A DNA stretch of 43,277 bases from Betaproteobacteria bacterium (GTDB lineage Bacteria > Pseudomonadota > Gammaproteobacteria > Burkholderiales > SG8-41), in assembly GCA_947476215.1 (NCBI GenBank), contig CANJQI010000022.1, forward strand, positions 1 through 43,277, given 5' to 3'. This document shows positions 33,484-43,026 of this stretch, in pieces. Each line of letters begins with the position of its first letter. The stretch's first letter is position 1. The notes beneath the pieces are model-generated. The model saw only the letters and a program-made list of their open reading frames with translations, searched no databases and was not told where the DNA came from. Both the position numbers and the translations under genes were made by a program.

Positions 33484-33554
33484 GAGACGCGCGCTTGACG
33501 CGCGACACGATGAAACGTGAAAAATAAACCGGTATGAGTACAAAAGGAAGAGCA

Positions 33555-34715
33555 GTGTCAAATTCCAATTCCGATAAAGAAATTTCCCTCCTCGCCACCG
33601 GAGACTGCGGCCCGGTTCATGGTCCGGAAGACGGCATACCCATAGAGCGCTACTCGGAATTGGTGCGTCCGACATTCGCGGCGGCGGACATTCGTTTCGG
33701 TAACTGCGAGCGGCAGTATTCGCTGCGCGAAGCGGCGCCCGGCGCGGACGTGCATGGTTGCGCATCGCCCCATATGGCGAAAATCTTTACCGATTGTGGT
33801 TTTGATGCGCTGACCATCGCCAACAATCACATGTACGATCATGGGCCGGAAGCCCTGCTCGACACGCGTGCTTTACTGCAGGGGAAAGGCATCCAGGTTA
33901 CCGGTGCCGGCAAGAACATCGATGAAGCATGTCAACCCGCGATCGTGGAGCGCGGCGGCATACGGGTCGGTTTCCTCGGTTACTGTTCGTTTATTCCCAA
34001 GGGCGGGACGGCGGGGCCGGACAAAGTCGGCATTGCCCCCCTGCGCTACCACACCCAACACGAACAGACCGACTACCACCCCAAGGGATTGCTCACACTG
34101 ACGCGTGTTCGCACCGAACCGGACGAGCACGATATGCAGCGCATCAAGGACGATATTGCGGCATTACGCAGGCAGGTTGACATCGTGATCGTTGCATTTC
34201 ACTGGGGCGTCATCTGGATACCCAGAGTCATCGCGGATTATCAGGTGGCCGTGGCGCACGCGTGTATCGATGCCGGCGCCGACATGATAGTCGGGCATCA
34301 CACGCATGTGCCCAAGGGTATCGAGGTATATAAAGGCAAGGCAATTTTCTACAGCCTGGGGCTGTTCTGCATGACCAAGCGCCCTCTGGATCCCCACGGG
34401 TCTTGGAAGGAGCCGGCGTGGGTCCATGGCTCACTGCGCAATTACACCGACCTCGACCCCGATTACCCGCTGATGCCCTACGGCAAGGATGCCACCAAGT
34501 CGCTGATCGCCAAAGCAGTATTGACCAAGGGCGGCATCAAGCGTGTTTCCTTCCTGCCGATGATGATAGACAAGCAGTACCGGCCTGAAATCCTGCCAAA
34601 TGGCGATCCCCGATTCGATACCATCGTCAATTACATGAACTGGGCGTCGGACGGCTTCAATCACGCATTCAGGGTCGAAGGCGACGAAGTCGTCATCACG
34701 GGCAGCAGCGGATAG
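33555..34715 (+). CDS. CapA-family metallophosphatase-like protein (intact active site)
   Basis: A 386-residue protein of the PGA_cap/CapA superfamily with the full set of fold motifs: ATGDCGPVHG, FGNCER, ANNHMYDHGPEAL, FHWGVIW and GHHTHVPKGIEVYKG, then FYSLGLF. In calcineurin-like enzymes these residues bind a two-metal centre. I chose the GTG at 33555 because AAGGA lies 6-7 nt upstream; an ATG at 33534 adds seven residues but has no such site. There is no signal peptide or membrane anchor, unlike true capsule CapA, so it probably acts in the cytoplasm on a small molecule. It lies 71 bp after MmgE/PrpD copy 3 and is likely co-transcribed with it. Confidence 0.86.
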   Translation: MSNSNSDKEISLLATGDCGPVHGPEDGIPIERYSELVRPTFAAADIRFGNCERQYSLREAAPGADVHGCASPHMAKIFTDCGFDALTIANNHMYDHGPEALLDTRALLQGKGIQVTGAGKNIDEACQPAIVERGGIRVGFLGYCSFIPKGGTAGPDKVGIAPLRYHTQHEQTDYHPKGLLTLTRVRTEPDEHDMQRIKDDIAALRRQVDIVIVAFHWGVIWIPRVIADYQVAVAHACIDAGADMIVGHHTHVPKGIEVYKGKAIFYSLGLFCMTKRPLDPHGSWKEPAWVHGSLRNYTDLDPDYPLMPYGKDATKSLIAKAVLTKGGIKRVSFLPMMIDKQYRPEILPNGDPRFDTIVNYMNWASDGFNHAFRVEGDEVVITGSSG

Positions 34716-34732
34716 GGCGGCAGACGATATTG

Positions 34733-34807
34733 TCGCAGTCCCGGAAATCGGAGCAACATTATGCGTACAGCAAACTGATCAAGACACTGGGCATACGCGC
34801 CGAGTAA
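34733..34807 (+). pseudogene. Remnant: C-terminal tail of a Bug-family gene
   Basis: Between the CapA-like gene and the convergent dioxygenase, one frame ends in KSEQHYAYSKLIKTLGIRAE followed by TAA. This matches the last residues of intact Bug proteins in the window (compare KSEIARLGKLIRDAGIRVE at the end of the gene at 9394-10347). No upstream part survives. It is most simply the 3' end of a Bug gene whose body was deleted. The match is short, so chance cannot be wholly excluded. Confidence 0.6.
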
Positions 34808-34809
34808 AG

Positions 34810-35676
34810 TTAGACATCCAGGGTGGTCGCCCGCACCAGTTCGCGTCTGTATTTCATATCGTCGTAAGCGCGGCCGCGATGCATGGTGGCGCGGTTGTCC
34901 CATATCACGAAATCCCCCACCTTCCATGCGTGCTGGTACACAAATTGACGCTGGGTGGCGTGCTCGGTCAGGTCCATCAGCATCATGCGACCTTCCGGTA
35001 TCGGCCATCCCACGATGTGCGAGGCGTGTGACGCGAGGTACAACGAGCGTCTGCCTGAACCGGGAATGGTACGGATCAGGGGATGCACGGCGCCCTTGAT
35101 TTGTGCCTTTTCGTTCGCCGACAGTTCGACGCCCAGGATGGACCGCGTATGAACCGGATTATGCACGACCTGCAGGCCTTCCAGCCTGACCCTGGTCTCG
35201 TCATCGAGCGCATCGTAGGCGGCGCGCATGTCTGCATATTCCGTATCGGCGCTGACGGGCGGCACGGTTTTGGCCAGCAGCATCGAGTAGCGGCCATTGG
35301 GTTTCTCGTAAGACTGATCGGTGTGCCACAAGCGGTTTGTCATTCTGCTCATGCGTTTACGGTCTTCCGACGACCATATTTCGCCTTTCGCGTTGACATT
35401 GGAAATGTCGCTCAGGCCCTCGTACCCGGAGCGACCTTTGCCGATCATGGCCGATACACCCGCTTTGCGTGTAGAGCCGTCAAAACGCTGCGCGAATGCA
35501 AGTTGCTCGTCATTTGAGAAGGATTGATCGTGGAATACGAGTACGGCGTATTCGTCCATGCCGGCGCGTATCTGATTCAGTATTGGCCTGTCGTGAAGCT
35601 GGTGCAAATCAATCGCGCTCGCTTCCGCGACAAAATGAGGATGAATCCTTCTGAAGGTCAGTGTCATCGTGGGCAT
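34810..35676 (-). CDS. TauD/TfdA-family Fe(II)/2-oxoglutarate dioxygenase
   Basis: A 288-residue enzyme with the iron-binding facial triad His118-x-Asp120 (LWHTDQSY) and His266 (ATMHRGRAYDD), plus the 2-oxoglutarate-binding arginine region YRRELVRATT (277-282). Family members hydroxylate taurine, alkylsulfates or 2,4-D-type aryloxy acids with oxygen and 2-oxoglutarate. The HTDQSY and CGRATT-like arrangement fits the TfdA-type branch, but the substrate is not determined. I chose the ATG at 35676 (or 35667) because the family begins there; the frame is open to 35874, but that extension has no family likeness. It is convergent with the CapA-like gene and the Bug remnant. Confidence 0.88.
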   Translation of the reverse strand: MPTMTLTFRRIHPHFVAEASAIDLHQLHDRPILNQIRAGMDEYAVLVFHDQSFSNDEQLAFAQRFDGSTRKAGVSAMIGKGRSGYEGLSDISNVNAKGEIWSSEDRKRMSRMTNRLWHTDQSYEKPNGRYSMLLAKTVPPVSADTEYADMRAAYDALDDETRVRLEGLQVVHNPVHTRSILGVELSANEKAQIKGAVHPLIRTIPGSGRRSLYLASHASHIVGWPIPEGRMMLMDLTEHATQRQFVYQHAWKVGDFVIWDNRATMHRGRAYDDMKYRRELVRATTLDV

Positions 35677-36048
35677 TTCATATTTCGCCAGATCATCGGT
35701 ATCTTGAAATCCACGTGCGGCAAATTGGACAGACCATGCAAAGCGGCAGACAAACGCATTCGACCGAATCCGGAGGCAGATCGTATAGGCTGTTTGTCCA
35801 CGAGTGAGCGATTGAGCAGACATGTTAGTCGGCTTCGTTACCTCGGTCAAACCGTTACCACGGGACTGCACCAATGGGAACGCTAAATGGTAGCGTGACT
35901 ATCCGCTACAATTAAAAAAAATCGGCGGCCAAAGGGAGCGAACGCGGCTTTTCCAAAACCAGATACCGGCGCTACTTTCTGCCAGTTCGTGGAGGAATCT
36001 GAAGATGACTGACAGGGCATCGCGGGCTCGAAAGGGAACGGAGGACAT
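35677..36048. other. Intergenic region between dioxygenase and Bug gene
   Basis: A 372-bp stretch between divergent genes. The dioxygenase frame stays open through about 200 bp of it but codes for nothing recognisable. An A-run lies near 35912. GGAGGACAT just before 36049 is the Bug ribosome-binding site. No RNA gene or clear operator is seen. Confidence 0.45.
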
Positions 36049-37026
36049 ATGAAAGCATCGGCAAGGACAATTTCATTATTGCTCGTCATGTGCGGCGCAG
36101 GTTTGTCGGCATATGCTGTTGCCCAGGGTTTTCCGTCGCGCACGGTGAGAGTTGTAGTGCCGGTGGCCGCCGGCGGTACGCAGGACATCGTGACACGCAG
36201 CATCGCGCAAAAGCTCACGGAACAACTGGGGCAGCAGGTCATCGTGGACAACCGTCCCAGCGCCAGCGGTGTCGTGGGGGTCGAATACGTGGTGAAGGCG
36301 CCGCCGGATGGGTATACGTATCTTGCGGCGTCAAACTCGCAGATTTCCGCGCCCACTGTCGTGCGGAATATCTCCTATGACGTGACCCGCGATTTCGTGG
36401 GCGTGAGCCTGCTTGCACGGGTTCCTTTCGTTCTCGTTATCAACCCGCATATTCCGGTTCGTTCCGTGAAGGAATTGATTTCGCTGGCAAAGCGCCGCCC
36501 CAACGAATTGACATATGGATCGGCTGGCAATGGCACGGGCGCGCATTTCGCGACGGAGCTCTTCAGTCATCTGGCCGCAATCAGGATGACGCATGTGCCA
36601 TACAAGGGCAATGCACCGGCGCTGGTTGACGTGCTGGGCGGGCAGATTTCGATGCTCTTTGATACGTTGAACACTTCGATTCAGCACATCCAGACTGGCA
36701 AGGTCAGGGGCTTGGGCGTGTCCAGCGCGAAGCGTTCACCCGTATTTCCCGATATGCCCACAATAGGCGAGGCAGGCTTGTCCGGATACGAACTCGGGGT
36801 TTTTAACACCCTGCTGGCCGCGGCGGGCACACCGCGGGAAATCGTGCTGCGTATGCACGCCGAAATCGCGCGTGCGGTTCAACAGCCGGACTTGCGCGAC
36901 CATTATCTTAAACAGGGCGTGGAATTGTCCGCGAGCGTCGCCGCGGATGAATGCAGCGCTTTTGTCAAAACCGAAACAGCAAAATATGCACGGATAGCGC
37001 AGGAAGCCGGGATACAGCCGAACTGA
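36049..37026 (+). CDS. Bug/TctC-family periplasmic solute-binding protein
   Basis: A 325-residue receptor with a signal peptide ending about AVAQ (residue 26). The first loop is VAAGGTQDIVTR, the second NRPSASGVVGVE, then PPDGYT, HVPYKGNAPALVDVLGG and the C-terminal ETAKYARIAQEAGIQPN. The usual PGGGTD is changed to AAGGTQD, and PGAGG to PSASG, so the binding pocket differs from the other copies. GGAGG stands 4 nt before the ATG. The UGSC operon on the opposite strand converges on it, 32 bp apart, with no obvious shared terminator. Confidence 0.9.
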   Translation: MKASARTISLLLVMCGAGLSAYAVAQGFPSRTVRVVVPVAAGGTQDIVTRSIAQKLTEQLGQQVIVDNRPSASGVVGVEYVVKAPPDGYTYLAASNSQISAPTVVRNISYDVTRDFVGVSLLARVPFVLVINPHIPVRSVKELISLAKRRPNELTYGSAGNGTGAHFATELFSHLAAIRMTHVPYKGNAPALVDVLGGQISMLFDTLNTSIQHIQTGKVRGLGVSSAKRSPVFPDMPTIGEAGLSGYELGVFNTLLAAAGTPREIVLRMHAEIARAVQQPDLRDHYLKQGVELSASVAADECSAFVKTETAKYARIAQEAGIQPN

Positions 37027-37058
37027 CGTTGCCGTCCATTCATGGACGGTTGCCGCAA

Positions 37059-38186
37059 TCAGACACGTAGCTCCTGCACGGACCTTGCAAGCTCGCCGTC
37101 GCGCCGTTTGAGCGCGCGTGTTACTGCACGCGTAGTGCCAAAGGTCGGCAGGAAAGCCGCGTGCTTGCCTGCGCCGCCGATGACGGCAATCATGAAATCT
37201 TCGGCACGTTCGGCCGCAGCCACCATGGCATTCGGCCCGGCCTGCGCGTACAGCTCGGGTGATCGGACTTTGAGTCTGCGCTGAATGTTCTCGTCCGAGA
37301 AGCTGCCCAGCGGAATCCGCGCATGCTCGAACAGGAAACGTTTGACGTCGGCCTTCGAATAGCCGTCTCCGGCGACCGTGGCAGCGAGCTCAGGCCCAAA
37401 CACGATCAACGCCTCGCCTGAGGTCGGCATGCTGATTGCCGATGCATTGTTGGAACCCGTGATGGCGACCGTTCCCGCGATCATTTTGAGCACGCCGAGG
37501 CCGGACAGGCTCTCGTGATCGTTCACGTTATGCGGATTTTCCGCGCCGACGATCGTGACGGTACTGGCGTGCGCGGGGAAACCGCGTTCGACGTGCAGCG
37601 GCTGCCACGGACTTGCAGCTTCGTTTTCGGCCACCAGAAAACTGTATTTGGCGGGGGAGCCAAACGTGGACATATCGCCGGTTCCCGGGATCGCACCGCC
37701 GATGTTGATGAGCGCAAGACGAATTGCCCGTCCTATCGTGGCATTGCTCTGCCAGCCGGGCCCAAAGGCATTGTGGCCGGCGTTGATGCCCAGTTCTTGT
37801 ACGATCGGGCCGTTGACGATGACCAGCGGTGCGCAAGGATGGGTGGTCGCCTGTATGCCGTATAAATTGAATTGCTCTTCGCACATTGCCTCGATGGCAA
37901 GCATGAGAATCGGGAAATACTCCGGCCGGCAACCCGCCATTACGGCATTGGCCGCGAGTCTGAGCGGCGTGGCGTCACCCCAGCGCGGCGCAATCCGCGC
38001 CACCGGCTGGTCCCACGGGCGGTCGCAATAGGCGAGCATCTGTTCCAGCCGCTGCGTGGTGGGCGGCACGATAGGCAGGCCGTCGCTCCATCCGCGCTGC
38101 AGATAAAGATTGTTGATCGTATCCCAATCGTCGTCTACTTCGATGCTGGCGCCGTCGGATTCAAGCAAAGCACTGACGCTGGTCAT
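37059..38186 (-). CDS. Conserved protein of unknown function, partner of the UGSC selenoprotein
   Basis: A 375-residue protein starting at ATG 38186, which overlaps the selenoprotein stop by 4 nt (ATGA), so the two are translationally coupled. The frame is open to 38435, but that extension lies inside the selenoprotein gene in another frame and looks artificial. The N-terminus has WDTINNLYLQRGWSDGLPIV. The middle has MAGCRPEYFPIL, YGIQATTHPCAPLVIVNGP and NAGHNAFGPGWQSNATIGRA, rich in conserved-looking Gly, Asn and Cys, as in an enzyme. I do not recognise a characterised family or cofactor motif. Tight coupling suggests it acts with the UGSC protein, perhaps as the other subunit of a redox enzyme; this is inference. 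Confidence 0.8.
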   Translation of the reverse strand: MTSVSALLESDGASIEVDDDWDTINNLYLQRGWSDGLPIVPPTTQRLEQMLAYCDRPWDQPVARIAPRWGDATPLRLAANAVMAGCRPEYFPILMLAIEAMCEEQFNLYGIQATTHPCAPLVIVNGPIVQELGINAGHNAFGPGWQSNATIGRAIRLALINIGGAIPGTGDMSTFGSPAKYSFLVAENEAASPWQPLHVERGFPAHASTVTIVGAENPHNVNDHESLSGLGVLKMIAGTVAITGSNNASAISMPTSGEALIVFGPELAATVAGDGYSKADVKRFLFEHARIPLGSFSDENIQRRLKVRSPELYAQAGPNAMVAAAERAEDFMIAVIGGAGKHAAFLPTFGTTRAVTRALKRRDGELARSVQELRV

Positions 38187-38722
38187 TTCAGATGTCCCCG
38201 GATAACGTCGACAAACTGGGCGACCGCCTGCTCGGCACGTGCCTGAACATGCTCGATGGAAATGCCGCCCAGAGGATGCGTGATCATGAGCAGCGGCATC
38301 TCGGGCACGCCCAGCACCCGCGCCTGAGTGCGTCCCAGACGCTCGAATTGCGTCGAACACACCACTGCCGTCAACAGCCCGCGCTTGCGCAGCTCGGCCA
38401 TGTCGTGGACACTCCACGACGTGCAGCCTCCTCAATCTGCCATGGCTGACACGACGCAGTCGGCTTCACGCGTCAGTCGGTCGAGCAGATCGTCCGGCGC
38501 GGGCATGCCGGCACCAAGCTTGCGCACCGAAACCACCGACGCGACCGGCAGGGCGCTTTGCACGCCTTCAACGATCATCGCCAGCAGGTGGTCGGCGTTG
38601 CCCTTGCTGTTGTCGAGTACGCCGAGCCGAAGTGCGTGCGCATGCAGCGGGCGCAGCGGCGGCAGGGTTGTCAACGGTGGGGGCGGAGCTTCGGGCACGG
38701 CCAAGACCACTTTTTGTGACAT
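38183..38722 (-). CDS. Putative UGSC-family selenoprotein, in-frame TGA read as selenocysteine
   Basis: Reading through the TGA at 38434-38432 gives one 179-residue protein with selenocysteine at position 97, in the motif MADUGGCTSWSVHD. This resembles the UGSC motif of UGSC-family (seleno)proteins, where U or Cys is followed by GSCTS..SVHD; here the third residue is Gly. The flanks fit one domain: VLDNSKGNADHLLAMI and READCVVSAMAD before, and ELRKRGLLTAVVCSTQFE and GVPEMPLLMITHPLGG after. The ATG has GGAG 8 nt upstream. A hairpin at 38420-38402 sits where a bacterial SECIS should be. Its stop overlaps the next gene by 4 nt. A simple nonsense mutation is the alternative, but downstream coding quality and the hairpin argue against it. 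The reaction is unknown; a thiol/selenol redox role is likely. Confidence 0.82.
38402..38420 (-). promoter_or_regulatory. Candidate bacterial SECIS element
   Basis: On the minus strand, 11 nt after the TGA, GTCGTGG and CCACGAC form a perfect 7-bp stem around the loop AGTGT. The loop starts 18 nt after the TGA and has G as its second base with an adjacent U. This fits the known spacing of E. coli fdhF-type SECIS hairpins read by SelB. There is no bulged U in the stem as in fdhF. Confidence 0.72.
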
Positions 38723-38908
38723 TTCGTTTTCTCCGTTTCGGGTAGTCTTGCGGTTGGTATTCGAGCGTTGATATGGCCGGTTTGTGCGCGCGATGCATCA
38801 TGGAATCATAACATTGGTATGGCAGCGCAAATCGTCATGCTAAGCTGGCGACAGATCGTGCCGGAGTATGGACCTGCCACGAGAATTTGCGGTTAGTCAG
38901 GAGCGCAC

Positions 38909-39862
38909 ATGAGGAATCTTGGATTCGTAGCGTTGTCATGTAGTCTGTCGATTCCGGGTGTGGGGCCGGCGTACGCTCAGGACTATCCGATCAAACCGAT
39001 ACGCATTTTTACCGGCGAGCCGGGCGGCGGCAACGACTTCGCGGCGCGGGTTATGTCTCCCGAACTGACCAGGAGTCTGGGACGGCAGGTAATCGTCGAC
39101 AGCCGCGGCATATTCGCGATTGAAACGGTGGCCAAAGCGCCGCCCGACGGTTACTCGCTGCTCCTCTACGCTGCCAGCACCTGGCTCACGCCATTCATGC
39201 GCGACAACACACCGTGGGATCCGGTGCGGGATTTTGCACCGATCACACTGGCGATGCGCATCCCCAATGTGTTGGTCGTGCATCCATCACTGCCGGTCAG
39301 GAATATCAGGGAACTGATCGCATTGGCAAAATCCAAACCCGGGCAACTCAATTTTTCCCTCGCGTCGCCAGGCTCCGTGTCCAGTCTGGGCGCGGAATTG
39401 TTCAAGTCCATGGCCGGAATCAATATCGTGCGTGTGCCATACAAAGGCACAGCGCAGGCACTCAATTCCCTGATCAGCGGTGAAGTGCAGATGATGATCT
39501 CGGTGGTGAGTGCGGCAGCGCCGCATGTGAAATCAGGCAGGCTGCGCGCACTGGCGGTGACCAGCGCGCAGCCGTCGCCGCTGGCGCCGGGCCTGCCGAC
39601 GGTGGCGGGTACGGGACTGCCCGGGTATGAATCGGTGTCGACGTACGGCATGTTCGTGCCGTCCAAAACGCCCGAGGCGATCGTTGTCCGGCTCAATCAG
39701 GAGATCGTGCGCGTGCTGATACGCGCGGATATCAGGGAAAAGTTTTTCAATGCCGGTATCGAGGCGGTCGGCACGTCACCGGAAGAGCTCGCGGCCTACG
39801 TCAAGTCGGAAATGGCGCGCATGGGCAGGGTCATTCGGGATGCCGGAATACGAGGCGAATAA
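38909..39862 (+). CDS. Bug-family solute-binding protein, GGGND subtype
   Basis: A 317-residue receptor with a signal peptide ending PAYAQ (about residue 24). The first loop is GEPGGGNDFAAR. The second is shortened to SRGIFAIETVAKAPPDGYS, lacking RPGAGG. Other features are RVPYKGTAQALNSLISG, LAPGLPTVAGTGLPGYES and EMARMGRVIRDAGIRGE. It is most like the copy at 11238-12191 in both loops. AGGAG lies 6 nt before the ATG. It is divergent from the selenoprotein operon (186 bp between), so the two could share regulatory DNA. Confidence 0.9.
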   Translation: MRNLGFVALSCSLSIPGVGPAYAQDYPIKPIRIFTGEPGGGNDFAARVMSPELTRSLGRQVIVDSRGIFAIETVAKAPPDGYSLLLYAASTWLTPFMRDNTPWDPVRDFAPITLAMRIPNVLVVHPSLPVRNIRELIALAKSKPGQLNFSLASPGSVSSLGAELFKSMAGINIVRVPYKGTAQALNSLISGEVQMMISVVSAAAPHVKSGRLRALAVTSAQPSPLAPGLPTVAGTGLPGYESVSTYGMFVPSKTPEAIVVRLNQEIVRVLIRADIREKFFNAGIEAVGTSPEELAAYVKSEMARMGRVIRDAGIRGE

Positions 39863-39881
39863 CTCCTGAAATGCAGTGCGG

Positions 39882-39934
39882 TCGATATGCAAGCCCCATA
39901 AAAAAAGCGCTTTAAAGGAATGCTTGCATATCGA
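39882..39934. repeat. 13-bp perfect inverted repeat with nested palindrome
   Basis: The arms TCGATATGCAAGC (39882-39894) and GCTTGCATATCGA (39922-39934) are perfect complements, 27 nt apart. The spacer holds a second palindrome, AAAGCGCTTT (39904-39913). The element lies 20 bp after a Bug stop codon and about 150 bp before the PEP-CTERM gene. The right arm contains TTGCAT, and TATAAC follows 19 bp later, so it could overlap a promoter for the PEP-CTERM gene. No T tract supports a terminator. Confidence 0.6.
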
Positions 39935-40082
39935 TTAAATACTTGTTTTATAACAATAGTTTATATGAGTATTGCTGGACTCCCCGCAATGCTTCGTTAG
40001 TCCAAACGGGCTATTTACAGAATGCTCTCCGGTATGTAGCCTCCATCCATCTTCAAATTTTTACAACTAGGCCGGAGACCAA

Positions 40083-40853
40083 ATGACAATCGGACAATCC
40101 AATATCTGGCGCGGCATGGGCGCGGTGCTCGTCGGTGCAGCAATGTGCGGGCCTCAGGCGGCTGCTGCAGCGGCATTGAATCTTACCGACGGCGACAAGA
40201 TTAAACTGGAGTGGGGTGCTGGCACTTATGGGCACGCCAGTGGCGGTGGTGAGTTCAAAGTCTCCGGTGTCAGTGTGCTTAACGGGCCCGGTGACACATT
40301 CCTCACGTTCTGCATGGAGTTTCCCGAGCATATTTCCCTGGGTACTGCCTACTATGTCGATGTTAACGACCGTGCGATCAGCGGTGGCGCTGGTTCCCTC
40401 GGTACCTATGCGGGCGATGTCGGCGGCACTGCCGCCTATGATCCGCTCAGCAATGCGACGGCGTGGCTCTATACGCAGTTCGTGAACCATACGCTTGCGG
40501 GATTCAATTTCGTCACTCCCAACGACGCGGATGCGAATTCGCTGCAAAAAGCCATATGGTTCCTTGAAAACGAGAAGCCGCTGTCGTTCCTGACCGGCGA
40601 CACCAACGCGATTGCTTTTAAGGGCGCGGCAATCGCGAACGCTATTGGTGGGTTTGCCAACCCCAAGGTGAGGGTGTTGAACCTGTGGGATACGCGCATG
40701 GGAACGCTTGGGAATTACTCGTTTTCCGGTAATCACCAGGATCAGCTTTACATGGCAACTCATATGCCCGAGCCGGAAACTTATGCGATGCTGCTGGCGG
40801 GACTGGGCCTGCTCGGGTTTGCGGCTCGTCGCCGCAAATCGAAATCCGCATAG
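40083..40853 (+). CDS. PEP-CTERM sorting-domain protein
   Basis: A 256-residue exported protein with a signal peptide (about 1-30, GAVLVGAAMCGPQAAAAA) and a C-terminal PEP-CTERM signal. That signal is the motif PEPETYAMLLAGLGLLGF, a membrane helix, then the basic cluster AARRRKSK. Exosortase (EpsH-type) recognises PEP, removes the tail and releases or anchors the protein at the surface. The mature part is Gly/Ala/Asn-rich with no known enzyme motif and one cysteine (FLTFCMEFPEH). Such proteins are often linked to exopolysaccharide or floc formation. GGAG lies 4-5 nt before the ATG. No exosortase or polysaccharide genes are in the window, so it is an orphan here. A strong terminator follows. 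Confidence 0.9.
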   Translation: MTIGQSNIWRGMGAVLVGAAMCGPQAAAAAALNLTDGDKIKLEWGAGTYGHASGGGEFKVSGVSVLNGPGDTFLTFCMEFPEHISLGTAYYVDVNDRAISGGAGSLGTYAGDVGGTAAYDPLSNATAWLYTQFVNHTLAGFNFVTPNDADANSLQKAIWFLENEKPLSFLTGDTNAIAFKGAAIANAIGGFANPKVRVLNLWDTRMGTLGNYSFSGNHQDQLYMATHMPEPETYAMLLAGLGLLGFAARRRKSKSA

Positions 40854-40870
40854 TCCTGATTTTCATTCGC

Positions 40871-40901
40871 AAAGCAGACCCCGCTAGGCGGGGTCTGCTT
40901 T
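40871..40901 (+). terminator. Strong intrinsic terminator after PEP-CTERM gene
   Basis: AAGCAGACCCCGC and GCGGGGTCTGCTT form a 13-bp perfect stem with loop TAG, followed by TTT. An A before and a T after can extend the stem. It is 17 bp after the stop codon, so the PEP-CTERM gene is a one-gene transcription unit on its right side. Confidence 0.9.
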
Positions 40902-41066
40902 TTGTGGTTTCCGATTCTGGGGATACCTAAAATTGCGATTTTGAACGCCTGATGCCGGACTGCAAAACGTTGATCAGGAATGCGGCTGCCGATTGGCGGC
41001 AATTTCGGTTTTCTCGGGATATTGACGCATGCTGCGAAGCAAGCACCGGCGTGAATCGCAATAGCC

Positions 41067-42023
41067 ATGCTGCGCAATGTGACGGGGATAATTTCCATCG
41101 GCATGATGACATCATGCTTGAATCATGGCTATTGCCAGAGCTACCCAACCAAACCGATTCGAATAGTAACAACTTCGTCCGGGGGCGGCGGCGATTTTTT
41201 AACGCGATTGATTTCGCCGGCGCTGGCCGCGAGTCTGGGCCAGACTATCGTGGTCGACAATCGCAACGGAACCTTGGGCGTCGAGATCGTCGTCAGGGCG
41301 TCACCCGACGGGTACACGTATATCTTGCACGGCAGCGTGATCTGGTTGACGCCGTATCTGCGCGGCCACGCTTCTTATGACCCGATCAGGGACCTGGCGC
41401 CAGTCGGGCTGGCTGCCCGATCTCCCAATCTGCTCGTGGTGAATCCGACGGTGGCCGCGCATACGGTTAAAGACCTGATAGCTCTGGCGAGATCGAAGCC
41501 GGGGGAACTCAACTATGCCTCGATCACCACCGGTTCATCCAACCATCTGGGCGCCGAGTTGTTCAAGTCCATGGCCGCGGTGAATATTGTGCGTGTGTCC
41601 TACAAGACCACCGCGACGGCGACTGCGGATTTGATCAGCGGGCAGGTGCAGGTAATCTTTGCGACCCTGGGGTCGATGTCGGCGCATGTGAAGGCGGGGC
41701 GGCTGCGCGCGCTGGCGGTCACGAGCGCAGAACCATCGGCGCTGATTCCGGGATTGCCCACCGTTGCGGCCTCGGGATTGCACGGGTACGAGGCCGTGTC
41801 GATATTCGGGATGTTCGCGTCGGCTGGCACACCTGCTGCGATTATCACGCGCATGAATCGGGACACAACTGCAGCATTGACTCAGGCCGATCTCAGGGAA
41901 AAATTTTTCAGCGCAGGGCTGGAACCGACGGGCAGCTCGCCGCAACAGCTGGGCGCAATGGTAAAAGCCGAAATGGCGCGTATGGGCAAGGTGATCAGGG
42001 ATGCGGGCATACGCGCCGATTAA
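41067..42023 (+). CDS. Bug-family solute-binding protein, GGGGD subtype
   Basis: A 318-residue receptor. The signal peptide region (1-25) is less classic, with two cysteines and no clear lipobox, and mature sequence starting near CQSYPTKPIRIV. The first loop is TSSGGGGDFLTR, the second NRNGTLGVEIVVRASPDGYT. Further on are RVSYKTTATATADLISG, where the usual PYKG is changed to SYKT, and EMARMGKVIRDAGIRAD. The ATG at 41067 has only a weak upstream site. A second Bug gene of the same subtype starts 40 bp after its stop, so the two form a tandem pair and probably an operon. Confidence 0.88.
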   Translation: MLRNVTGIISIGMMTSCLNHGYCQSYPTKPIRIVTTSSGGGGDFLTRLISPALAASLGQTIVVDNRNGTLGVEIVVRASPDGYTYILHGSVIWLTPYLRGHASYDPIRDLAPVGLAARSPNLLVVNPTVAAHTVKDLIALARSKPGELNYASITTGSSNHLGAELFKSMAAVNIVRVSYKTTATATADLISGQVQVIFATLGSMSAHVKAGRLRALAVTSAEPSALIPGLPTVAASGLHGYEAVSIFGMFASAGTPAAIITRMNRDTTAALTQADLREKFFSAGLEPTGSSPQQLGAMVKAEMARMGKVIRDAGIRAD

Positions 42024-42063
42024 CCACGCCAAAGCGGCTCTGTATCGTTTCAGGCGCGTGATC

Positions 42064-43026
42064 ATGCGGAGCGGAATTTGCACGGCATGGATGGCATCGA
42101 TGGGCATGACGGGGTTGCATGCGGGCTCTGCGTGCGGTCAGGACTTCCCGAGCAAACCGCTGCGCATCGTCACTCCCGGTCTGGGCGGTGGCAACGACTT
42201 TGTCGCCCGGCTCGTCAGTCAATCGCTGGCAGGCTCGATCGGACAGCCTGTGATCGTGGACAACCGGTCCAGCGGTGTTGTGCCCGGTGAAATCGTCGCC
42301 AAAGCCCCGGCCGACGGCCATACGCTGCTCTGCTACGGCAGTCCATTCTGGCTGTCGCCGCTCATGCAGAAAGTGCCCTACGATCCGGTCAAGGATTTTG
42401 TTCCAATCACGCTGGCGGTGAGGGCGCCCAATATTCTGGTCGTGCACCCCGGCGTGGCGGCTCGCTCGGTCAAGGATCTGATCGCATTGTCCAAGGCCAG
42501 GCCGGGAGAACTCAACTACGCAGCTGGTTCGACGGGTGCAGCCAATCATCTCGCTGCGGAATTGTTCAAGGCCATGGCCGGAGTCCGAATCACGCGTATT
42601 CCCTACACATCGTTTGGGCGCGCGGTAACCGATCTGCTCGCAGGAGAGACGCAAATGATGTTTGTGACGGTGGCTTCGGTCGACCACCATGTCAAATCCG
42701 AAAAGTTGCGGGCGCTGGCCGTGACCAGCGCGCAGCCGTCATTATTGACGCCGGGCCTGACCACTGTTGCAGCGGCAGGCCTGCCCGGATTTGAGGCCGC
42801 TTCATTTTTTGGATTCTTTGCGCCTTCCGCAACGCCGGCGCCGGTTGTGACTCGTCTCAATCGAGAAATCGTGCGCAGTCTGAACGTCAGCGACGCGAAG
42901 GATAGATTCTTCACGGCCGGCATGGAAGTTGTCGGCAGTTCTCCTGAGCAGTTCGCGGCTACAGTCAATTCCGAGTTGGCCAAAATGGGAAAAGTAATCA
43001 GGGAAGCGGGTATCCGGCTGGATTAA
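42064..43026 (+). CDS. Bug-family solute-binding protein, GGGND subtype
   Basis: A 320-residue receptor, second of a tandem pair. The signal peptide runs to about residue 26 (HAGSACGQ). The first loop is GLGGGNDFVAR, the second NRSSGVVPGEIVAKAPADGHT. RIPYTSFGRAVTDLLAG shows PYTS instead of PYKG. The C-terminus is ELAKMGKVIREAGIRLD. I chose the ATG at 42064, where the signal peptide begins (AGG 9 nt upstream). The frame is open from 42001, inside the upstream gene. Both tandem copies alter the PYKG motif, unlike most other copies here. Confidence 0.88.
   Translation: MRSGICTAWMASMGMTGLHAGSACGQDFPSKPLRIVTPGLGGGNDFVARLVSQSLAGSIGQPVIVDNRSSGVVPGEIVAKAPADGHTLLCYGSPFWLSPLMQKVPYDPVKDFVPITLAVRAPNILVVHPGVAARSVKDLIALSKARPGELNYAAGSTGAANHLAAELFKAMAGVRITRIPYTSFGRAVTDLLAGETQMMFVTVASVDHHVKSEKLRALAVTSAQPSLLTPGLTTVAAAGLPGFEAASFFGFFAPSATPAPVVTRLNREIVRSLNVSDAKDRFFTAGMEVVGSSPEQFAATVNSELAKMGKVIREAGIRLD

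Follow-up and report, generated by a model that had tools for sequence, protein, structure and literature searches.

The question raised by the locus described here is whether a TGA codon lying between two short open reading frames (ORFs) of a betaproteobacterial genome is a stop or is read as selenocysteine (Sec), and what the protein would do if it is read. The locus belongs to a window of 43,277 nt, meaning the whole stretch of DNA that was analysed, from contig CANJQI010000022.1 of assembly GCA_947476215.1. An earlier note on this window had claimed that the two ORFs form one hidden selenoprotein gene of the UGSC family, carrying a hairpin of the type found in bacterial selenocysteine insertion sequence (SECIS) elements and coupled to the next gene. 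The elements in question are the following.

38183..38722, minus strand: UGSC-family selenoprotein gene of 179 codons, with Sec as codon 97 and its own stop TGA at 38185-38183
38432..38434, minus strand: TGA read as selenocysteine (U97); counting the window gene, 53 genes of the genome have TGA where this codon aligns
38402..38420, minus strand: SECIS hairpin with a 7-bp stem (GTCGTGG/CCACGAC) and the loop AGTGT, 11 nt 3' of the TGA
37059..38186, minus strand: partner protein of 375 aa, whose start overlaps the UGSC stop (ATGA)

The minus-strand ORFs 38722-38432 and 38401-38183 were found to share one frame, and its only interruption is the TGA at 38434-38432. When this codon is taken as Sec, a protein of 179 residues is obtained with U97 within ADUGGCTSWSVHDM, so that the joining of the two ORFs around DUGGCTSWSVHD, as first claimed, was borne out in full. 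The identity of the joined protein was likewise confirmed by a match to the Pfam UGSC family (PF24696), which spans residues 24-174 on both sides of U97 with 143.3 bits against a cut-off of 25 (E 1e-41). The equivalog cut-off of NCBIfam NF041046 was missed by a small margin, at 119.1 versus 125 bits when scored with Cys in place of Sec. The word hidden does not fit the UGSC family itself, which was already in the literature by 2008 at the latest (PMC2398784) and is covered by Pfam and NCBIfam models. The window gene has the domain of this known family and Sec in the same motif, and it differs in its score just below the NCBIfam cut-off, in the form of the motif (UGGC) and in being one of 53 such genes in its genome. 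Fusion of UGSC to a conserved domain named Unknown_1 is described in the same 2008 paper (PMC2398784); Unknown_1 is not equated here with the partner of about 375 aa. In a review, the family is given as one of unknown function (PMC13188914).

Further analysis of the genome revealed that the window gene has many paralogs. A search with the single protein returned 35 UGSC matches and a 33-row profile returned 58; in the stretches fetched around them, TGA was found precisely at the UG[SGAT]C motif in 53 genes, including the window gene. An alignment of these paralogs showed that coding conservation flanks the TGA on both sides. Relatives were examined at 80 partner loci from named genomes, out of 571 that encode a relative of the partner. 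The UGSC domain was not found in the flank at seven of them, and the other 73 carry TGA (66), Cys (6) or a motif that could not be aligned (1). The Cys-type relatives come from Binatia, Sphingomonas, two haloarchaea, a Methanobacteriaceae bin and a Hyphomicrobiales bin. TGA was present at all 13 of the nearest loci (L083-L094, L099), nearly all of which are metagenome-assembled genomes (MAGs) labelled Betaproteobacteria or Burkholderiales. Selenoproteins are usually recognised by Sec and Cys replacing each other at a given site, and such replacement was observed: homologues run through position 97 with Sec or Cys and do not end at it. A sequencing error, which the earlier note had named as a possible refutation, would not return at the same codon across 53 paralogs and at 66 of the 73 loci of relatives that have the domain. 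As a side observation, environmental MAG records labelled Bordetella parapertussis (L093, L137, L139, L160) carry these Sec genes; the labels look wrong because, in the tree, three of them (L093, L137 and L139) fall among uncultured betaproteobacteria.

The machinery for Sec insertion is encoded in the source genome, which amounts to 5.75 Mb in 326 contigs and is estimated to be 98.5% complete with 1.17% contamination. A tRNASec gene (selC) was identified with 74.1 bits and a TCA anticodon, and on a single contig the tRNASec gene, a thioredoxin-reductase-like gene, selB and selA follow one another. The selD gene lies elsewhere and is itself of the Sec type, with TGA in GGGuGCK. All four genes that the earlier note had asked for, selA, selB, selC and selD, are thus present.

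The perfect 7-bp stem with the loop AGTGT, eleven nt after the TGA, was verified at its coordinates, and an A-T pair inside the loop could extend the stem to 8 bp. Whether this hairpin acts as a SECIS element was judged from codon choice in those genes that keep the same residues downstream of the TGA, that is, 25 of the 53 own genes and 43 of the 65 relatives' sequences. In all 25 own paralogs the loop serine is encoded by AGT, which has a background of 6%. The stem serine is TCG in 25/25 (background 27%) and the His is CAC in 25/25 (background 33%); the glycine and following codon after the TGA are variable. At the outer stem pair, 20 of these paralogs have G-C, four have A-T and one has G-T (Fisher p 4e-4). 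The relatives with the same residues also use AGT without exception (43/43, background 5%), and among Cys homologues AGT occurs at the loop-serine site in 0/5. Covariation was counted in 94 sequences (87 distinct), comprising 29 of the 53 own genes and 65 from relatives. Here 97.5% of stem cells are paired and two-sided changes occur in 13 cells versus 2.9 in shuffles; such changes affect three of the seven stem pairs, and three pairs are invariant. Moreover, a second UGSC subfamily (CTPAVLRAS and similar) has a hairpin of unrelated sequence at an equal distance from the TGA, for example GCCCGC-CGTGTT-GCGGGC, with matched stem changes such as ACCCGC/GCGGGT and CCCTC/GAGGG. With a simple hairpin finder, used without a shuffled control, a stem of at least 5 bp was found in 49 of the 53 own genes; 48 of these hairpins begin 10-12 nt after the TGA and one at 18 nt (C136_13239).

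Several results weaken the case for a SECIS element. The folding energy of the 55-nt stretch at 38434-38380 is unremarkable (z = -0.66, with 44 of 200 shuffles equally good), and a non-standard outer stem pair occurs in 11 of the 87 distinct rows. A control slid by +3 gave a similar covariation score (0.098 versus 0.100), but just 58% of its cells are paired. The simple finder gave no hairpin in four of the 53 own genes (C14_44963, C104_19633, C86_22234 and C36_8940). Because the energy is not significant, the case stands on codon choice and covariation, and it is these two lines that uphold the SECIS claim of the earlier note. They support the conclusion that the codons downstream of the TGA track the hairpin rather than codon usage, and that the hairpin behaves as a SECIS element.

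Could the TGA nevertheless be a real stop, leaving a decayed pseudogene or two separate peptides? TGA does serve as an ordinary stop elsewhere, including at the end of the window gene itself, and the hairpin region does not stand out by its folding energy. This reading is extremely improbable in view of the 53 genes with TGA at the exact codon and conserved coding on either side, the full Sec machinery, the covariation of the SECIS and the Cys found in other relatives. Separate small ORFs, a pseudogene and a sequencing error were each ruled out by the same-codon TGA genes and the relatives. A general reassignment of TGA was ruled out as well, as TGA terminates the window gene and ten other split-type UGSC genes. 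The window gene is therefore almost certainly a genuine UGSC-family selenoprotein gene in which codon 97, UGA, is decoded as Sec. As a single gene this is true but ordinary, one more member of a known selenoprotein family.

What is unusual is not the single gene but the array of about 50 copies with a dedicated partner and frequent receptors. About 50 of the 53 genes are seemingly intact; three are partial or doubtful, namely a fragment on contig C45 and the partial copies C37_36480 and C307. Of the remaining five profile matches, two belong to a single frameshifted copy on C7, one is a half on C158 lacking the motif, and two are divergent copies on C76 and C80. The frameshifted copy, with the motif uESC (L070:3305-3812, C7:46804-47311), lies immediately 5' of an apparently intact partner gene. 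The copies on C76 (L074:3709-4230) and C80 (L075:3301-3744) are fused to the partner and their Sec motif is gone (sequence ALCNAGITQPTS), showing that the domain can lose Sec yet stay with the partner.

A large copy number might also be an artefact, produced in assembly if the genome bin were mixed. The 326 contigs need not come from a single strain, a caveat shared by a published count of 63 selenoproteins in one Methylomirabilota MAG, as given in a review (PMC13188914). The contamination estimate stated above argues against such mixing, as does the divergence of the copies, since the closest pair among 51 own UGSC domains is 74.5% identical. Many copies lie together on one contig (C27 has six, C11 four and C14 three), and in a sample of the taxonomic family the UGSC domain was found in 60 of 60 genomes, source included, with 1 to at least 48 matches each. 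An artefact of this kind is very unlikely. In a tree of 127 sequences, the bootstrap of which had not settled, rows of other species lie between the 51 own rows, with 20 label changes of which 12 are forced by well-supported branches. Given this interleaving and an identity of at most 74.5%, the copies are old and diverse rather than assembly duplicates. For comparison, a 2016 survey of more than 5200 organisms reports 33 UGSC selenoproteins in 26 organisms (PMC5029168). A comparable count for a single selenoprotein family within one genome was not found in the available parts of the open-access literature, preprints excluded.

Other selenoprotein genes add to this number. Both grdA (CFVU) and grdB (STUGTCT) are of the Sec type and lie together on contig C148, and two Sec-type prdB-like genes have the motif UPNCTC. 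Together with selD and the 53 UGSC genes, 58 candidate selenoprotein genes were counted, or 55 without the three partial UGSC copies; this total covers the families looked at (UGSC, SelD, GrdA, GrdB and PrdB-like). At least 57 selenoproteins are given in the review for the Olavius Delta 1 symbiont, next to the 63 of the Methylomirabilota MAG (PMC13188914). A total of 55-58 is thus record-sized and not clearly a record, because 57 and 63 were already published.

The gene following the window UGSC gene encodes the partner, for which no Pfam or NCBIfam family was found. The coupled operon layout claimed for the two was verified, with the ATGA overlap joining the UGSC stop to the start of the partner gene at 38186-37059; this overlap indicates that the UGSC gene is laid out for translational coupling to the 375-aa partner. 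Across the genome, 62 partner matches were found. The partner is fused to the UGSC domain in 33 of the 53 genes, lies just downstream in 12 and just upstream in 6, and was unassigned in two. One of these two runs past the fetched stretch and has a partner match at C11:31064, which brings the paired genes to 52 of 53; the other is the C45 fragment. The UGSC gene is probably the first half of a two-part enzyme completed by the partner of about 375 aa. The predicted model of the partner is confident (pLDDT, predicted local distance difference test, 90.5). A comparison of its sequence with the PDB gave nothing convincing (best E 0.074).

The fold of the UGSC domain was approached by an AlphaFold model with Cys for Sec, which is confident (pLDDT 94) and shows an alternating alpha/beta domain. 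Foldseek gave 1748 matches at E <= 10; in the 50 that were listed, flavodoxin-type proteins stand near the top and thioredoxins are absent. The domain is therefore predicted to be flavodoxin-like and not thioredoxin-like, unlike the thioredoxin-like fold guessed in the 2008 paper (PMC2398784). Thioredoxin-fold UxxC selenoproteins have the UxxC motif in common with UGSC and differ in this predicted fold. The query-normalised TM-scores range from 0.30 to 0.54 and the matches are mixed, so that only the general fold is shown. No convincing relative was found when the UGSC profile was compared with PDB sequences (best E 0.013, to a designed protein).

A distant relative was found among selenoproteins of glycine reductase. 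In hhalign, 126 UGSC sequences matched the C-terminal Sec domain of four GrdB proteins with 93.8% (E 1.7e-7), Sec aligning on Sec, and the 33-row UGSC profile matched the same four with 84.4% (E 7e-6). Controls with shuffled columns or the partner gave E 0.23-0.68, and a positive control, GrdB versus PrdB-like profiles, gave 99% (E 2e-18). UGSC is only as long as the GrdB Sec domain, and its neighbour comes from a different protein family; the source genome moreover holds the separate Sec-type grdA-grdB locus on C148 described above. The kinship is weakened by several points. Four GrdB sequences underlie the match, three being near copies of one another, its statistics are those of a single comparison, and the 33-row profile against one GrdB sequence falls to 40.9% (E 2.8e-4). 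The three near copies have UGTST in place of UGTCT, so not every GrdB protein keeps the Cys at the third place after Sec. For the window protein no match to the GrdB family (PF07355) was listed at E up to 10, a range in which HMMER filters drop most matches above 0.1. The comparison was one of the UGSC domain with GrdB. The profile match of UGSC to PrdB-like proteins reached 12% (E 0.0024), which does not support PrdB as its closest kin; PrdB and PrdB-like selenoproteins are kin of GrdB, and their motif UPNCTC is unlike that of UGSC. Taken together, the evidence for common descent of the UGSC domain and the GrdB Sec domain, at a distance, is good and not conclusive, as judged from profile comparison.

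Some observations concern GrdB and PrdB themselves. Any PF07355 match is rare in a sample of the phylum (4 of 249 genomes, source genome included). Listed PF07355 matches end at model position 343-347, just 5' of the Sec codon, which suggests that the Pfam GrdB model was built from TGA-truncated proteins. In PrdB-like genes the TGA lies in UPNCT and the frame stays open for about 190-270 residues further; this applies to 28 of 35 GrdB/PrdB-type loci (L164, L165, L176-L201).

The neighbourhood of the UGSC genes offers a view of their possible substrates. In the window, the UGSC-partner pair is flanked by a TctC receptor on either side.

38909..39862, plus strand: periplasmic solute receptor of the TctC/Bug type, transcribed divergently from the UGSC gene (PF03401, 198.8 bits)
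36049..37026, plus strand: periplasmic solute receptor of the TctC/Bug type, transcribed convergently with the partner gene (PF03401, 225.4 bits)

Near UGSC genes, TctC receptors make up 66 of 174 neighbour ORFs, compared with 39 of 316 in a background of twenty 20-kb stretches without UGSC or partner (38% versus 12%, odds ratio 4.3, p 1e-10). A TctC gene was found within 1.5 kb of the UGSC or partner domain in 42 of the 52 fetched stretches. A Pfam tally, made on 147 of the 174 ORFs, which were chosen greedily by length and not by gene calling, counted 58 TctC, 13 MmgE/PrpD, four flavin adenine dinucleotide (FAD) proteins and three family III coenzyme A (CoA)-transferases. Four of the 24 plasmid records with a partner gene were also looked at. 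The partner region contains a TRAP transporter and a CoA-transferase in Halalkalicoccus; TctC receptors, LysR and trxB in Variovorax; and TRAP, CoA-transferase, LysR and trxB in Roseovarius. In Sporomusa a fused gene lies beside an FAD oxidoreductase, LysR and aconitase X, without such receptors.

Four TctC receptors were found in the window at 36049-43026, and at 33534-35874 a PGA_cap-type protein and a TauD-type dioxygenase stand beside receptors, each family occurring twice among the 147 neighbour ORFs. TctC/Bug receptors are hugely expanded genome-wide, with 995 first-look candidates; of these, 150 were scored and all 150 exceeded the cut-off.

These observations can be brought together with published knowledge of GrdB. 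In glycine reductase, several substrate-specific GrdB proteins are reported to feed one reductase system, and FarB, a GrdB-like selenoprotein, is proposed to cleave fluoroacetate; the FarB species is described as having several substrate-specific copies, some near transporters (PMC10838667). With this precedent and the receptor context, the UGSC genes most likely encode reductive enzymes that depend on Sec and act on small acids, each with its own substrate. The best explanation of the whole, which we consider probable, is a Sec-decoded UGSC protein that acts with its partner, in about 50 versions, in GrdB-like reductive cleavage of small acids. In it, SelB and tRNASec decode codon 97 (UGA), directed by the hairpin 11 nt downstream. 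We further infer a chemistry, substrates and an electron donor along the following lines. A small carboxylic acid would be bound with the help of the partner. The U97 selenolate would then most likely attack the alpha carbon of the substrate and expel its substituent, and it would be released by the nearby Cys in UGxC together with reduced thiols that a thioredoxin-type system supplies. Such a donor is consistent with the thioredoxin-reductase-like gene between selB and selC and with trxB near the partner on two plasmids. The paralogs would differ in substrate, each often being fed by its own TctC/Bug receptor.

This explanation also has points to its detriment. The evidence is computational; it supports the recoding, the SECIS, the copy number, the partner pairing, the receptor enrichment and the GrdB profile match. 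The TctC pairing is enriched and not exclusive, because receptors make up 12% of background ORFs as well. Pyr_redox_2, the Pfam family of thioredoxin reductase, was found in just two of the 147 neighbour ORFs, and trxB in just two of the four plasmid regions (Variovorax and Roseovarius). For the partner model no solved fold matched below E 0.001 (best Foldseek E 8e-3).

Two other functions were weighed. UGSC could be a general thiol or peroxide redox protein of the thioredoxin-like kind, with the copies as redox buffers and the partner as a docking protein, as was suggested in the 2008 survey (PMC2398784); the UxxC motif is typical of such proteins. This is rather unlikely, as the confident model matches flavodoxin-type proteins and no thioredoxin among those listed, the common neighbours are solute receptors and MmgE/PrpD, and about 50 diverged copies with a dedicated partner are better explained by substrate diversity. 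Alternatively, UGSC and partner could form a flavodoxin-type reductase that binds flavin mononucleotide (FMN) or a metal, with Sec serving as ligand or redox relay and not as the attacking nucleophile. The top fold matches do include the FMN proteins azoreductase, WrbA and MsuE and a flavodiiron core. They also include GTPases, a TIR domain and lumazine synthase, and the profile match puts the Sec of UGSC on that of GrdB, leaving this second alternative about as improbable as the redox protein.

On the reading as reductive, Sec-dependent enzymes for small acids, a more specific picture can be offered tentatively. About fifty UGSC-partner pairs may form an array, each pair possibly serving another alpha-substituted small acid delivered by its own TctC/Bug receptor, with Sec driving removal of the substituent. 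No description of such a catabolic strategy was found in the open-access literature without preprints. If true, no larger expansion of a single selenoprotein family within a genome would be known to us. It would also place a betaproteobacterial lineage among the heaviest known users of Sec, which are given in the review as mainly anaerobes, for example Thermodesulfobacteriota, Synergistota and Clostridia (PMC13188914). Substrate-specific catabolism is suggested by some fifty paralogs retaining Sec, of which all but one of 53 are paired with this partner and many lie close to a receptor. Moreover, the link to GrdB supplies a concrete chemistry to test and opens the function of the UGSC family to direct tests.
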